DNA from: Bacteroidota bacterium
GTDB lineage: Bacteria; Bacteroidota; Ignavibacteria; Kryptoniales; JAKASW01
Assembly: GCA_023381615.1 (NCBI GenBank)
Contig: JAMCQL010000047.1
Location: 1-64,000 of the forward strand
Reading direction: 5' to 3'
DNA length: 64,000 nt
A program made the translations under genes and the position numbers. Position 1 is the first letter of the stretch, and each line of letters begins with the position of its first letter. The notes below the pieces were generated by a model. That model had not been told where the DNA came from. It searched no databases and saw only the letters and a list, made by a program, of their open reading frames with translations. Shown piece by piece: positions 16,040 to 59,526 of the stretch.

Positions 16040-17690
16040 AACATCGCTGTTACTTTTGTCGAGCGTTTTTTTTGTGCAGTCGCTTTATGCTTCCGACCGA
16101 AGAGGGGAAATACATCGCTTCTTCGAATCTTACAATGTGAAGAATTACAATAAGTGCGGCTTTCATATTATCGCGCATTATTTCGGTCTGCCGAACGCAG
16201 AAATGTCGATCAAGCAAGTCTTGCAGATCAGACCAACGAACGACACAAGCATTGTAAGTCCGTCGGGCAAATTCAGAATACACTTTGATACATCGGGAGT
16301 CAATCAGCCGTTTCTTTACGATTCGGTTGGGCAGCCGATACCCAATAGCACTTTTGCTTTCGTGGATACAGTTGCAAAGATTAGTGATCATGTGTACCAC
16401 GTTGAAGTTGATTCCCTCGGTTATCCACCGCCGCCGCCTGACAGCGGTGCAGGTGGGGGAAATGAATACGACATTTATGTGCAAGACTTGCCGATCGGAG
16501 AATACGGCTACACAGATTGGGAGGATTCTCATCCGATTATCAATCGTGTCAACCCAACCTATGCAGCATGGATGGTGATCAGGAACGAATTTGAGTCAAC
16601 ATACACCAAGGGAATACCGGCGGTAGAGGTTACGATTGCCCACGAGTTTCATCACGGAATACAGATCGGCAATTACGGCTTGTGGCAGAATGATCTTTGG
16701 TTTTACGAGCTTACGTCGACCTGGATGGAACAAGTTGTTTACCCGGGTGTGAAAGACTATTATCAATACCTGCCGAACTTTTTCAACAATGTTGACCAAC
16801 CCTTTAATCTTTACAATCCAAATTCTTACGCGGGATATGAGCGCTGTGTCTTTGGTATTTTTGTGCAGAATGAACATGAATACGGTGCTCAAGTGATGAA
16901 GTCCATCTGGCAGAACATGGCGCATGAACCTGCGGTTCCTGCCATTGAAGATGCGTTTAAAGGAATAGGTGTTAGCCCGTCTTACGTGTTCCAGTTGTTT
17001 GCACAATGGAACTATTTCACCGGTTACAGAACGCAGTTTGCCGGACAATATGCTTTCTCCACCTATCCTCAAGCCGTCAATTATCCTTTGGTCAAGGTGA
17101 GCGGGATCGGGAGCCTTTCAGGCAGCGGTGTGGACTTTTCCGAGAGCGCCCTAAGATTGACAGAACATTTTTACCAAGTTAGTGAGGGAACCGACACCGT
17201 TGGGATGGCTGTGGTCAATAATAATTTTACCGCCGCTGTCAATTATGACACCACGAGTTTTCCGTTTTCTGTTGGAATTTCTAGCGGAGGTCCAAATTGT
17301 GTAAGAGAATTATCGGGAGGCTACTGTCTGTTCTTTAACACAGCCGATTATGGGAACTGGGGATTGGTTCCGTTTATCTTGGGTAAAGTGCTTGCAGCGA
17401 AAAACGATGTCGTCTTTCCGCAACCATTCAACCCATCACTTCAAAACCTAAGGATACCATATCCATTTTCTGATATAATCAACGCAAGCCTTTCTATTTA
17501 TGACATTTCTGGCAATCTAATTAATAAATTTACTGGTGATAGTAAGATCGTATACTATTTGCGTGGAAAGTATTTTCTATGGGATGGCAAGGATAGAAAC
17601 GGCAAAACTGTTGGAAGCGGTGTTTATATTTACATATTGACAGATGGTTCTAAAAGTGTTGCTGGCAAAATAGCCGTTGTGAGGAACTGA
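16017..17690 (+). CDS. secreted HExxH metalloprotease-like protein with FlgD-type C-terminal domain
   Basis: 557 residues. A signal peptide (1-25, LYAS) precedes a domain with the zinc motif HEFHH in VTIAHEFHHGIQIGNYG (about 204-220) and a downstream Glu in YELTSTWMEQ (about 232-241), the arrangement of the MXAN_6640-type putative metalloproteases. The C-terminal ~90 residues begin with FPQPFNPS and continue LSIYDISGNLINK...WDGKDRNGKTVGSGVYIYIL, a FlgD-like/type IX-sorting-like domain. It is probably delivered to the cell surface or outside. It overlaps both neighbours (23 bases upstream, one base with the ABC ATPase downstream). Confidence 0.82.
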   Translation: MHRFTLFKTSLLLLSSVFFVQSLYASDRRGEIHRFFESYNVKNYNKCGFHIIAHYFGLPNAEMSIKQVLQIRPTNDTSIVSPSGKFRIHFDTSGVNQPFLYDSVGQPIPNSTFAFVDTVAKISDHVYHVEVDSLGYPPPPPDSGAGGGNEYDIYVQDLPIGEYGYTDWEDSHPIINRVNPTYAAWMVIRNEFESTYTKGIPAVEVTIAHEFHHGIQIGNYGLWQNDLWFYELTSTWMEQVVYPGVKDYYQYLPNFFNNVDQPFNLYNPNSYAGYERCVFGIFVQNEHEYGAQVMKSIWQNMAHEPAVPAIEDAFKGIGVSPSYVFQLFAQWNYFTGYRTQFAGQYAFSTYPQAVNYPLVKVSGIGSLSGSGVDFSESALRLTEHFYQVSEGTDTVGMAVVNNNFTAAVNYDTTSFPFSVGISSGGPNCVRELSGGYCLFFNTADYGNWGLVPFILGKVLAAKNDVVFPQPFNPSLQNLRIPYPFSDIINASLSIYDISGNLINKFTGDSKIVYYLRGKYFLWDGKDRNGKTVGSGVYIYILTDGSKSVAGKIAVVRN

Positions 17691-18328
17691 TGATTTTAAC
17701 TGCAAAACAGCTCAAAAAAATTTTCAACAGACGCGTTGTATTTAAAGACATCTCGTTCGAAGTAAAGTCAGGCGAGGTTCTTTCGATAACCGGGCCAAAT
17801 GGCAGCGGAAAATCCACTGCTTCTAAGATCATTTGCGGGATTTTAACGCCGACAGCCGGTGAGGTCGCGCTTCACAACGGCGGCGGAAAAATTGACAGGG
17901 ACGAAATTCATCAATATATCGGTTTTGTTGCTCCTTATCTCGAGTTGTACGGAGAGTTTACCGCACTGGAAAATTTGCAGATCGAATCGCGCGCGCGGAA
18001 GCTGAAAACTGGCGATGAGAAAGCTTTGGAAATTCTTCAGCTTGTTGGATTGTTCAATAGAAGGAACGATGAATTGAGAGGCTTTTCATCCGGAATGAAA
18101 CAAAGACTTAAATATGCAGCGGCGCTTATTCATGATCCTGCCGTTCTAGTTCTCGACGAACCGACCGCCAATCTGGATACCGCGGGAGTGGAGATGGTGT
18201 ATTCCATAGTTGATCGTTATCGGAAAGACAGAATAGTAGTGATTGCCACAAATGACAATGAAGAAGCTTCGCTTGGTGATGTGAAAGTTGTGCTTTCGAA
18301 GAACTTAGGAGCTGTGAATGGGAAATAA
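17690..18328 (+). CDS. ccmA: ABC transporter ATP-binding protein, probable haem exporter CcmA
   Basis: 212 residues. Walker A GPNGSGKST (about 35-43), signature FSSGMKQRLKYAAAL (about 131-145) and Walker B VLVLDEPTANLD (about 152-163) are intact. The short length and LxxxYGEFTALENL region resemble CcmA. The only ABC permease in the window is CcmB at 24653-25315 on the other strand, so I infer that this ATPase powers CcmB. It is cut off from ccmBCDEF by copA and copZ, and it starts within the stop codon of the secreted protease gene (TGATG). It could instead serve an unlinked permease. Confidence 0.75.
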   Translation: MILTAKQLKKIFNRRVVFKDISFEVKSGEVLSITGPNGSGKSTASKIICGILTPTAGEVALHNGGGKIDRDEIHQYIGFVAPYLELYGEFTALENLQIESRARKLKTGDEKALEILQLVGLFNRRNDELRGFSSGMKQRLKYAAALIHDPAVLVLDEPTANLDTAGVEMVYSIVDRYRKDRIVVIATNDNEEASLGDVKVVLSKNLGAVNGK

Positions 18329-20624
18329 TTCAGAGATTGGCGAACAGACTAAGAAAAGTAAGATTAAACTTACACTTCCTGTGCAGGGAATGACTTGTGC
18401 AAGTTGTGTATTGAGGGTTGAGAATGCATTGAAGAGGGTTGAAGGGGTAAACGATGCCGTCGTAAATCTTGCGACTGAGTCAGCCACCGTTGAAATAGAG
18501 GCATTAAAAGTGAACGTTGATGTTCTCAAAGCGGCAGTAGAAGATGCGGGTTACAAAATTATTGACACCGCCGATGAAATCGATTCATTCAAGGTCGAAG
18601 CAGAGGCGCGGGAAAAAGAATATAAATCGCTCTGGAAAAAGTTTCTCATCGGGGCGGTGCTCGCTGTGCTGATAATGATCGGCAGTATGCCGGAAATATT
18701 CCCGTTCGTGCAAAACATTCCGACTGGAATTCGAAATTTTTCTTTGATGCTGCTCACCATACCTGTAATGTTTTACGTGGGGAGCAGGTTTTTCAGCGGT
18801 TTCTGGGCCGCGTTGCGACATGGAACGGCTGATATGAATACGCTTGTGGCTGTTGGCACGACATCTGCTTTTCTTTACAGCGCTGTTGCTACAATTTGGC
18901 CTAGCCTTTTTGTCTCGGCTGGAAAAAACGTCGATGTATATTTCGATACGAGTGCGGTTATCATTACGCTGATTCTTCTTGGGAAGATTCTTGAGGCGAA
19001 AGCAAAGTGGAAATCTTCGGAAGCGGTCAGGAAGTTGATGGCGCTTCAGCCGACAACAGCGCATCTATTGCTTGATGGAAAAGAAGTCGTCGTTCCCTTG
19101 ACGGCAATTCAGGTCGGAAGCATCCTGAGAGTCAAACCCGGCGAGAGGATTCCGGTCGACGGAAAGGTTCTCGACGGTTTCTCGATGGTGGATGAGGCTG
19201 CATTGACAGGGGAGAGCATTCCCGTTGAACGTACAATCGGGGGAACGGTGCTCGGTGGGACGGTTTGCCTTGATGGGACTATGACGATAGAAGCCGAAAA
19301 AGTGGGCAAAGAAAGTTTTGTCGCGCGCGTTGCAAAACTTGTCGAAGAAGCGCAGACTTCCAAACCTCCGGTTCAAAGACTTGCAGACAAAGTGGCGTCT
19401 GTTTTCGTTCCAAGCGTCATTGTGATCGCTCTTGTTTCTGCGGCCATCTGGGCTTTGTTTGGGCCGGCGCCGCTATTGATTCATTCTCTGATGACATTTG
19501 TGGCTGTGCTCATAGTTGCTTGTCCGTGCGCGCTTGGCCTTGCGACTCCAACTGCTATCATGGTAGGCACGGGACGCGGAGCTGAAATGGGAATACTCAT
19601 TAAGAACAGTGAGACATTGGAACAGGCTCGCAAAATAACTAGTATTGTCTTTGACAAAACAGGGACACTTACTGTTGGTGAAATGAGAGTTGTTGAGACG
19701 ATTCTGTTTGACGGAGCAACCGAAAACGATCTGTTGAAACTTGCTGCCTTGGCGGAGATTCATTCTGAACATCCGATAGCGAAGGCAGTCGTTGTTGAGG
19801 CGAAGCACCGCGGTTTGCTTATTCAGCCCAATGGCAATTACGGCTTTAAGAACTCTGCCGGCAAAGGCGTTGAGATAAGCTTGCGGGATTCTGTTGGACA
19901 AAAAACTATTCGAGTGGGGAAATTAGAATTTGTTTCAGACAGTTCTTCGGGGAAATTGGAAAAAGAATGTGAGGTCAAAGTTTCACAGAGAATAGATGAA
20001 TTAGCCGCCACGGTTCTTTACGTTTCCGTTGATTCACAGATACTTGGTGCAATTTTGGTAAGCGACTATGTTAGAGACGGTGCGGTTGAAGCAGTAAAGG
20101 CAATCAAGAATTTGGGACTAAAAATTTACCTTTTGACAGGCGACAGCGAGGCATCCGCAAAACGTATTGCTCAACAGGTTGGAATTGATAAGTACTTTGC
20201 CAGTGTTCCTCCGGACGGAAAGTTCGGCACAATAAAAGAACTGCAAAAGTCCGGCGAGGTAGTTGCGTTCGTTGGCGACGGTATAAACGATGCCCCGGCG
20301 TTGACTCAAGCAGATCTCGGAATAGCAATGGCAAGCGGGACAGACATTGCTGTTGAGACCGCAGATATTACTTTGATCAAGAATGACCTCAAGCTTGTGC
20401 CGATGTCTATCGGTTTGTCTAAAGGAACGCTGAGAGTGATCAAACAAAACCTTTTCTGGGCATTTTTCTATAACGTGATTTTAATACCACTTGCTGCCGG
20501 CGCGTTTTATCCTTTCACTGGATGGCAATTGAATCCGATGATCGCTTCTGTTGCGATGGCGATGAGTTCAGTGAGCGTTGTCAGCAATTCTCTTCGTTTG
20601 AAGAGAGTCAAGATAAGATCTTAA
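18318..20624 (+). CDS. copA: copper-translocating P1B-type ATPase
   Basis: 768 residues. One heavy-metal-binding domain with GMTCASC (about 24-30) is followed by eight predicted membrane helices. The ion-channel motif is CPC at 402-404; the phosphorylated Asp is D446 in DKTGTLT; TGES, HP (SEHPIAKA) and GDGINDAPAL loops are present. CopA exports Cu(I) from the cytoplasm, either for detoxification or for loading cuproenzymes such as cytochrome oxidase. It overlaps the ABC ATPase gene by 11 bases. The next gene, copZ, is its metallochaperone. Confidence 0.96.
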   Translation: MGNNSEIGEQTKKSKIKLTLPVQGMTCASCVLRVENALKRVEGVNDAVVNLATESATVEIEALKVNVDVLKAAVEDAGYKIIDTADEIDSFKVEAEAREKEYKSLWKKFLIGAVLAVLIMIGSMPEIFPFVQNIPTGIRNFSLMLLTIPVMFYVGSRFFSGFWAALRHGTADMNTLVAVGTTSAFLYSAVATIWPSLFVSAGKNVDVYFDTSAVIITLILLGKILEAKAKWKSSEAVRKLMALQPTTAHLLLDGKEVVVPLTAIQVGSILRVKPGERIPVDGKVLDGFSMVDEAALTGESIPVERTIGGTVLGGTVCLDGTMTIEAEKVGKESFVARVAKLVEEAQTSKPPVQRLADKVASVFVPSVIVIALVSAAIWALFGPAPLLIHSLMTFVAVLIVACPCALGLATPTAIMVGTGRGAEMGILIKNSETLEQARKITSIVFDKTGTLTVGEMRVVETILFDGATENDLLKLAALAEIHSEHPIAKAVVVEAKHRGLLIQPNGNYGFKNSAGKGVEISLRDSVGQKTIRVGKLEFVSDSSSGKLEKECEVKVSQRIDELAATVLYVSVDSQILGAILVSDYVRDGAVEAVKAIKNLGLKIYLLTGDSEASAKRIAQQVGIDKYFASVPPDGKFGTIKELQKSGEVVAFVGDGINDAPALTQADLGIAMASGTDIAVETADITLIKNDLKLVPMSIGLSKGTLRVIKQNLFWAFFYNVILIPLAAGAFYPFTGWQLNPMIASVAMAMSSVSVVSNSLRLKRVKIRS

Positions 20625-20648
20625 AAATAAAACATGACGGAGGAATTA

Positions 20649-20885
20649 ATGTTCAACATGGGAACAAAAAAGAAAGTCCTGAAGGTCGATGGCATGACAT
20701 GCCATCATTGTGAAATGACAGTCGAGAAAGCTTTGCTTGAGATTGACGGTGTGAAAGCCGCAAAGGCTGACCACACAAGCAAGAGCGTCGAAGTGCAGTA
20801 CAAAGATGAGCTTGATCTGGGTAAGGTAAAAGATAAAGTGGAGAAAGTGGGTTACAAGTTCGTCTCAGCGAACCGAATTATTTAG
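20649..20885 (+). CDS. copZ: copper chaperone CopZ-like (HMA domain)
   Basis: 78 residues starting at the ATG at 20649, five bases after a strong GGAGG; an ATG at 20634 lies upstream of that site and is less likely. A single HMA domain with the Cu(I) motif GMTCHHC follows KKKVLKVD, then the conserved second half VEVQYKDELDLGKVKDKVEKVGYKF. It delivers Cu(I) to CopA. The gene is 24 bases downstream of copA and ends at a palindrome that separates it from the convergent ccmF. Confidence 0.93.
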   Translation: MFNMGTKKKVLKVDGMTCHHCEMTVEKALLEIDGVKAAKADHTSKSVEVQYKDELDLGKVKDKVEKVGYKFVSANRII

Positions 20886-23403: not shown

Positions 23404-23814
23404 TTAATTGAGAGTGCTGGTAGCAGCTTGGGAGGAAGCCTGAGGTCCGGTTTTGGATTGGTATTTAGAGGGACATTTGGTCAGCACTTCGCTGGCTTGG
23501 AATACGCCATTCTCGTAGCGGCCTTTCGCTACAATGTCGTTGGCGATTTCAAAATTATTCGGCTTCGCGCCGGCGAGTACGACAGGGAGGACGGTTTTTT
23601 GGTCGTCAACCATGTAGAAATGGAAAGTGTTTGTCTTCGGGTCGTAATAACTTTGCATGTCCTTCATCCATGTGCCTTTCACCTGGACAGTGCGGTTGGT
23701 CTTTTCGGCGCCTTTTGCAGAAACATACTCGATGTTATTCTGCATGAATGAAATTGCGCCGAAAATCACAAAGGCAACAATTACGAGCCCTGCCACTATG
23801 TATTTGGTCCTCAT
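23404..23814 (-). CDS. ccmE: cytochrome c maturation haem chaperone CcmE, Cys variant
   Basis: 136 residues. One N-terminal membrane helix (about 6-24) is followed by the OB-fold (VQVKGTWMKDM, FHFYMVDDQKTVLPVVLAG, VAKGRYENGVFQASEVL). CcmE carries haem covalently from CcmC to CcmF in the periplasm. The residue that binds haem is normally a His in HxxxY; here the motif is C114-P-S-K-Y118. Such CxxxY proteins are known from the variant called system I*, in some Deltaproteobacteria and archaea, which can work without CcmH. The start codon overlaps the ccmD stop (ATGA). Confidence 0.94.
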   Translation of the reverse strand: MRTKYIVAGLVIVAFVIFGAISFMQNNIEYVSAKGAEKTNRTVQVKGTWMKDMQSYYDPKTNTFHFYMVDDQKTVLPVVLAGAKPNNFEIANDIVAKGRYENGVFQASEVLTKCPSKYQSKTGPQASSQAATSTLN

Positions 23815-23972
23815 TTTACGTTCTCCTTTTCAGCTTCGGTCTTTTCATAGAGTTTGCTAACCTTCTTATCTAAACGATATAAATAAATAAAAATTCCCAG
23901 CCATATTACCAAAACGATTATCAAAACGACATAAAGCGAATGCGCATCGAGGAAGCTATATAGTGAACTCAT
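23811..23972 (-). CDS. ccmD: CcmD-like small membrane protein
   Basis: A 53-residue frame between ccmC and ccmE. Its ATG directly follows the ccmC stop codon and its TGA overlaps the ccmE ATG. One membrane helix (about 13-32, LYVVLIIVLVIWLGIFIYLY) is followed by RLDKKVSKLYEK and a charged tail, the layout of CcmD. CcmD helps release holo-CcmE from the CcmABC complex. Position, length and helix-then-basic-tail topology make this call fairly secure despite the poor conservation of the family. Confidence 0.88.
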   Translation of the reverse strand: MSSLYSFLDAHSLYVVLIIVLVIWLGIFIYLYRLDKKVSKLYEKTEAEKENVK

Positions 23973-58956: not shown

Positions 58957-59526
58957 ATGAACAGGACTCTTCTGGAATATACGCTGCGGGTTCGCGTCCC
59001 TGTGCTCATTTTTGTGGCGATGACCTCGATTACAGTTACTTACTTTGTAACAAGACCTGCAAGGGAAGGCATCGGTTACGCACCAAAGCAGCCAATCGCT
59101 TTTTCGCACAAGCTCCACGTAGGCACAATGAAAATTGATTGTGCATACTGCCACATCGGTGTTTATAGGTCGAGATACGCAGTTGTTCCAGCTGTAAGCA
59201 CTTGTATGAACTGCCACACGATTGCAAAAAAAACACAACCCGTAATAATTAAACTCACAAAATACTACGACGAAGGAAAACCAATTCCCTGGAAACGAGT
59301 CCAAAAGCTTCCCGATTACGTTTATTTCAGTCACAGTTTCCACGTGAATACGGGGATCAAATGTCAGGACTGTCACGGCAGAGTACAGGATATGGACGTG
59401 ATCAAGCAAGTTTCTTCGTTCACAATGTCTGCATGTTTGGATTGCCACAGAAATGCTCCGCAGCGTCTTTCGTACATTCCGAACGTTAAACCCGGCCCGA
59501 CGTATTGCGTGGCTTGCCACAGGTAA
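58957..59526 (+). CDS. actA: alternative complex III pentahaem cytochrome c ActA
   Basis: 189 residues. One N-terminal membrane helix (about 12-30) anchors a periplasmic domain with five CxxCH haem sites: CAYCH, CMNCH, CQDCH, CLDCH and CVACH. Distal His residues are in FSHKLH and FSHSFH. This matches ActA, the multihaem subunit of alternative complex III, a quinol:cytochrome c (or oxidase) oxidoreductase that replaces bc1. Maturation would need the Ccm genes at 17.7-25.3 kb. First gene of the operon. Confidence 0.94.
   Translation: MNRTLLEYTLRVRVPVLIFVAMTSITVTYFVTRPAREGIGYAPKQPIAFSHKLHVGTMKIDCAYCHIGVYRSRYAVVPAVSTCMNCHTIAKKTQPVIIKLTKYYDEGKPIPWKRVQKLPDYVYFSHSFHVNTGIKCQDCHGRVQDMDVIKQVSSFTMSACLDCHRNAPQRLSYIPNVKPGPTYCVACHR

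Follow-up and report, generated by a model that had tools for sequence, protein, structure and literature searches.

A CcmE haem chaperone whose haem-binding histidine is replaced by cysteine, the sole form seen in a draw of Bacteroidota genomes

The window, by which we mean the whole 64,000-nucleotide stretch of DNA analyzed here, encodes on its minus strand a CcmE in which cysteine replaces the haem-binding histidine of the Escherichia coli protein, and this assignment was confirmed. The protein very probably belongs to System I*, the cysteine-type route of cytochrome c maturation that often does without CcmH. It is ordinary for its host, the cysteine form being the sole form seen in our draw of the phylum. 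The features discussed below are collected in Table 1.

Table 1. Features of the window, the host genome, and related loci (C, contigs; G, genomes; L, loci)
Feature	Location	Strand	Evidence
ccmE, cysteine-type haem chaperone, 136 aa	23404..23814	-	PF03100, 5.2e-17; AlphaFold model against solved CcmE structures
Haem-attachment motif C114-P-S-K-Y118	23461..23475	-	Alignment with E. coli H-x3-Y; cysteine in 127/127 CcmE-bearing genomes
ccmB, 220 aa	24653..25315	-	PF03379, 9.4e-17
ccmC, 226 aa	23973..24653	-	PF01578, 3.3e-26; TIGR01191 ccmC, 4.9e-33, under its cut-off
ccmD, 53-aa one-helix protein, 4-base overlap with ccmE	23811..23972	-	PF20077 CcmD_alt, 1.6e-7
ccmF, haem lyase, 791 aa	21015..23390	-	PF16327, 3.8e-24; PF01578, 2.7e-23
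Probable ccmA, 212-aa ABC ATPase	17690..18328	+	TIGR01189 ccmA, 1.6e-32
ActA-like cytochrome c, 5 CxxCH, likely client	58957..59526	+	Translation and motif count; name by eye
Second CcmF, host genome (G000), two pieces	C57 start (L038 1-695) and C36 end (L037 17325-19082)		Shared residues at contig ends
Cys-rich protein directly after second CcmF	L037 17009-17365	-	Also in L079, L080, L081
Divergent CcmH-like proteins	L057-L064, L076, L077, L143, L146-L149
CcmE2	L097 7413-7766	+
CcmE2	L161 5614-5985	+
CcmE2	L172 7363-7716	+
Tailless CcmE-like protein, outside main ccm operon, directly before extra CcmF	L078 5437-5784
Tailless CcmE-like protein, outside main ccm operon, CcmH-like genes on same stretch	L146 1961-2326
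Tailless CcmE-like protein, outside main ccm operon	L320 3740-4078

The ccmE open reading frame is preceded by a plausible ribosome-binding site (AAGGAG), and its product scores 62.5 bits on PF03100 (cut-off, 24.6). Matches to the NCBIfam CcmE models all fall below cut-off (best, 50.6 bits against 126), perhaps because histidine-type proteins underlie those models. In the sequence itself, CPSKY occupies residues 114 to 118 (codons 23475-23461), and alignment with the CcmE of the annotated ccm operon of E. coli K-12 pairs C114 with the histidine of AKHDENY. The Pfam match and this pairing uphold the original prediction, which had read a CcmE with C114-P-S-K-Y118 here. In a phmmer search of the PDB, the top match was the Desulfovibrio vulgaris CcmE (2KCT), with the cysteines aligned, at an E value of 0.099 that is not significant alone; unrelated phospholipase C chains follow close behind (E values of 0.15 and up), and the 2KCT chain stops right after the cysteine region, which places the motif tyrosine outside the comparison. 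A D. vulgaris CcmE structure is mentioned in the literature (PMC3884852). An AlphaFold model of the window protein, built from an alignment of 30 sequences, had a mean pLDDT of 85.5 that was low solely in the tail from residue 122, and a Foldseek search with it returned the CcmE structures 8ce8_E, 1lm0, 1sr3, 1j6q, and 2kct within the first ten matches. By analogy with characterized cysteine-type proteins, we infer that haem would be held covalently at C114.

On the minus strand the gene order is ccmB, ccmC, ccmD, ccmE, ccmF, identical to the order of the homologues in the classical System I of E. coli. The two systems differ in the CcmE residue, histidine in E. coli and cysteine in the host, and in the placement of ccmA, ccmG, and ccmH, which lie within the E. 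coli gene run. The small gene between ccmC and ccmE reaches 31.7 bits on CcmD_alt (cut-off, 23.5), and a CcmD match was present in 71/80 and 69/83 ccmE loci of two sets that differ in stretch length and have some genomes in common. CcmF of the window matches E. coli in each of the four histidines used for comparison (E. coli His 173, 261, 303, and 491), which we take to be the functional histidines. The operon contains neither ccmH nor ccmG, as had been noted at the outset, and to that earlier picture can be added ccmD and a probable ccmA. The latter lies 2.7 kb past ccmF on the opposite strand, separated from ccmBCDEF by copA and copZ; it scores 112.8 bits on TIGR01189 against a cut-off of 131.6, and other ABC families score equal or higher. 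In L040, a member of the same genus, ccmA is placed as in the window. Under a strict cut-off, TIGR01189 picked up the ATPase ahead of ccmB in 47 of the 54 ccmB-bearing loci of one set, and a ccmA match accompanied ccmB in only 17/47 of the other. A detached ccmA is thus not rare in the phylum. The plus-strand stretch from 17690 to 20885 holds the probable ccmA, then a copper ATPase (copA), and then a copper-chaperone-like protein (copZ). The pentahaem ActA that had also been predicted is present in the window as an ActA-like protein with five CxxCH motifs.

System I*, with a cysteine in CcmE, is a described variant (PMC3601427). According to the 2011 review, CPSKY is the majority motif of the bacterial variant CcmE (25/36), CcmH is present in about one-third of the bacteria with a cysteine CcmE, and delta-proteobacteria, Chloroflexi, and Firmicutes are named as holders (PMC3601427). 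A Desulfovibrio operon without CcmH and CcmG makes holocytochrome in E. coli (PMC3601427). With the Desulfovibrio system (PDB 2KCT), the host shares the cysteine CcmE, CcmD, and an operon devoid of CcmH and CcmG, as far as these sources describe it (PMC3601427, PMC9084895, PMC3884852); putative differences on the host's side are the detached probable ccmA, a second CcmF, and a CcmG-like thioredoxin and CcdA encoded elsewhere in the genome. The streamlined Ccm system of Methanosarcina acetivorans, in which the CxxxY motif is required for haem attachment to CcmE, is likewise described with a CxxxY CcmE and with neither CcmH nor CcmI (PMC9084895). In contrast to the archaeal genomes of that account, which are without CcmD and CcmH, the host has a CcmD (CcmD_alt match, 23811-23972), and whereas CcmF is split into two proteins in M. 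acetivorans, the CcmF of the host operon is one full-length protein (PMC9084895). The host combines a CcmE cysteine with CcmB, CcmC, CcmD, CcmF, and a probable CcmA, as in System I*, and CcmH, which only some System I* bacteria have, is unmatched in the draft genome.

Of 392 genomes drawn evenly across the phylum, each at least 90% complete, 264 had CcmE, and CcmH matches were few and weak, occurring in 12 (5 over cut-off). The motif itself was surveyed in a draw of 188 genomes chosen regardless of motif, with every CcmE match listed. CcmE occurred in 127 of these genomes, and the DNA of all 128 matches was read: 126 carry CPSKY, one carries CPSRY, one is a tailless paralogue whose genome encodes a CPSKY copy as well, and none carries histidine. 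Cysteine was therefore found in every CcmE-bearing genome (127/127), and because the draw was blind to the motif, this is not chance. The reading that the host matures its cytochromes through the CxxxY variant is supported, while the oddity that the original prediction had implied for such a bacterium falls away. The invariance of the motif in two further alignments (A1 and A4) is no evidence, their sequences having been selected by motif. A genome scan for L[TVM]KCPSKY, which sees the cysteine form alone and is uninformative on the histidine form, yielded at least 579 confirmed CcmE stretches. Among the matches listed, 80 loci were kept, mostly labelled Ignavibacteria or Bacteroidetes, with further labels of Kapaibacterium, Chlorobiota, Calditrichota, Zixibacteria, and Acidobacteria and single records of Deltaproteobacteria and Armatimonadetes. 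A search of the open-access literature on CcmE or cytochrome c maturation in Bacteroidetes or Ignavibacteria returned no statement of the variant being fixed in the phylum, which is no proof of absence; in Melioribacter, a CcmF has been named (PMC5492636).

A CcmE tree was built from 122 chosen rows and 120 columns, a selected part of the loci. Four members of the host's genus form one clade (support, 100/99) beside rows from Ignavibacteria (94/81). The 30 rows that represent other classes of the phylum group to one side (96/96), where they are joined by ten rows of other phyla, and E. coli, the sole histidine row, sits on a very long branch. The position of the ten rows among other Bacteroidota classes means either that inheritance was not purely vertical or that the tree is too weak. 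The simplest reading is mostly vertical inheritance with possible exchange between phyla, and the cysteine form was probably inherited with the phylum.

The host genome is a 3.37-Mb draft in 86 contigs, 94.4% complete, with the window on contig C53, so a gene scored as missing could sit in a gap. A genome-wide CcmE profile search gave a single match, with the motif CPSKY; the HxxxY of classical System I was not encountered. CcmH (PF03918), the other mark of the classical system, had zero matches in the draft genome, the same search being positive in 4 of 14 control genomes. No CcmI scored over cut-off in the draft (best, 24.7 bits against 29.3, in a 762-aa frame; 2/14 controls positive). A second, HxxxY-type CcmE with a full ccmGH set had been named as the observation that would overturn the original prediction; we looked for it and found one CcmE and no CcmH in the draft genome, and the prediction stands. 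A qualification applies to CcmG. The CcmG model matches six places in the genome, all below cut-off (best, 52.8 bits against 123), and the best of these CcmG-like thioredoxins lies 8 kb from the gene of the one DsbD/CcdA protein in the genome, on a contig other than that of the window, so a CcmG function may exist.

These searches bear on the alternative in which a hidden second system, be it System II or another set of CcmE and CcmH, matures the cytochromes, leaving the cysteine CcmE as a relic or a side branch. Such a system could lie in the missing part of a genome that is only a 94% draft. The ResB model (PF05140, System II), which had zero matches in the draft genome, also fails on the Bacteroides control, which PF01578 detects, and might likewise overlook a divergent CcsB of System II; in addition, contig C7 encodes a protein of the CcsA superfamily. 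By its place, however, this protein looks HemX-like, with a hemA-like gene next to it (both names were given by eye), and it is the sole PF01578 protein read neither as CcmC nor as CcmF. PF01578 marks five places in the genome: CcmC, CcmF, the HemX-like protein, and two pieces, one at the end of C36 and the other at the start of C57. Because these pieces have 40-odd residues in common, the more likely reading is a single second CcmF split by the assembly and not a CcsBA. A separate System II was set aside as the less likely reading, ResB being unmatched (by a weak model) and all five PF01578 places being read otherwise. Against a hidden system of any kind stand the failure to find ResB, CcmH, or a second CcmE in the draft genome, the retention of ccmBCDEF and a probable ccmA with the compared CcmF histidines intact, and the conservation of the CcmE cysteine across the 127 genomes, and we consider it very improbable.

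Both pieces of the second CcmF retain the compared histidines, and a CcmF_C search gave two matches in the host genome and two or more in all 12 genomes of the genus examined. In four of five genus loci (L037, L079, L080, and L081), the second CcmF is followed by an open reading frame for a Cys-rich protein of 109 to 144 aa; the fifth, L082, is cut off at CcmF by the end of its contig. This recurrent neighbour could be an unrelated, lineage-specific partner that replaces CcmH. However, by eye it has neither a signal peptide nor a membrane helix and is probably cytoplasmic, the two proteins tested had no Pfam match, and no homologue was found in the examined loci of other genera. The archaeal and Desulfovibrio systems, moreover, are described as functioning without CcmH (PMC9084895, PMC3601427). 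The Cys-rich protein was set aside as a CcmH replacement because it looks cytoplasmic and has no Pfam match, and that any such partner replaces CcmH in the host seems to us highly unlikely.

Under the System I* assignment that we favour, CcmABCD would deliver haem to the periplasmic side, where it would be loaded onto CcmE and, as in Desulfovibrio and Methanosarcina, become covalently bound to C114. CcmF would then receive the haem from CcmE and, unaided by CcmH, join it to apocytochromes such as ActA at their CxxCH motifs. To reduce the cysteines of the apocytochromes, the host would probably rely on genes located elsewhere, those for CcdA and a TlpA/CcmG-like thioredoxin. In this account the gene content, the motif, its distribution, and the lack of any trace of alternatives in the draft genome were observed, whereas the haem chemistry, the partners, the clients, and the mode of inheritance are inferred.

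On its own the window matters little, since it merely enlarges a described variant by one member. Of greater interest is the survey, in which the cysteine form was the sole form in the phylum draw and CcmH matches were few and weak: the phylum offers a large natural set for studying how CcmF manages in the absence of CcmH and by what means a stable thioether to CcmE is broken again. Relatives of the host also provide a concrete, testable extra component, a tailless CcmE paralogue that we call CcmE2. It is 116 to 124 aa long (12 aligned), has no Cys/His-x3-Tyr, and ends just before the position of the haem motif; a G-H-x-H and a later histidine are invariant or nearly so. No Pfam model matched it over cut-off. 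A comparison of the CcmE2 and CcmE profiles by hhalign gave 98.2% (4.5e-14), the aligned part stopping just before KCPSKY. The structure model (pLDDT, 85.7) combines a small beta domain with a helix at the N terminus. In a Foldseek search with this model, other OB folds took the leading places and CcmE 1j6q came at rank 46 (E value, 0.013), so the kinship of CcmE2 to CcmE rests on sequence and gene order. In 17 of the 19 loci with both genes, several of them from the same genomes, CcmE2 overlaps ccmE or starts at most 60 bases after it, and ccmF follows within 291 bases in 15/19, the remaining four stretches showing no ccmF. The two genes lie on different contigs in G168, which speaks against a fixed link. 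Strong CcmE2 matches (at least 79 bits; the next, 39) were found in 16 of 119 genomes of the host's Ignavibacteria-like class. These 16 belong without exception to families f5, f6, and f10, and the 12 genomes of the host's genus had none. Two of seven CcmE2-bearing database loci are labelled Candidatus Kapaibacterium.

Divergent CcmH-like proteins occur in families f3 and f2 of the class. We inspected 8 of the 12 CcmH-matching genomes (L057-L064; G132, G047, G076, and G355 were left out), and all eight matches were divergent, L062 and L063 encoding an identical protein. The match spans roughly the first 80 of 143 positions, and in place of LRCxxC there is a Cys-rich stretch (e.g., CGCGSC) in which CxxC is retained; several of the proteins carry a zinc ribbon at the N terminus and come with a second copy. 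The stretches of L076, L077, L143, L147, and L149 hold an extra CcmF besides the CcmH-like genes, and those of L146 and L148 do not. The genes around these loci presumably encode efflux, FtsX-type ABC, and DUF2318-like proteins (named by eye). CcmE2 and the CcmH-like proteins are more unusual than the CcmE of the window, and the roles proposed for them are putative. One speculative scenario, which we regard as rather unlikely, is that the cysteine pathway became fixed in a phylum missing canonical CcmH and that some lineages refilled the CcmH position in different ways, the host representing the plain form. CcmE2, with its OB fold, G-H-x-H, and later histidine, would fill that position in f5, f6, and f10 and carry haem from CcmE to CcmF in non-covalent form, and in f3 it would be filled by the CxxC-keeping CcmH-like proteins, several of which are near an extra CcmF. 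Some 40 kb from L143 and on the same contig, L078 encodes a tailless CcmE immediately ahead of a further CcmF.
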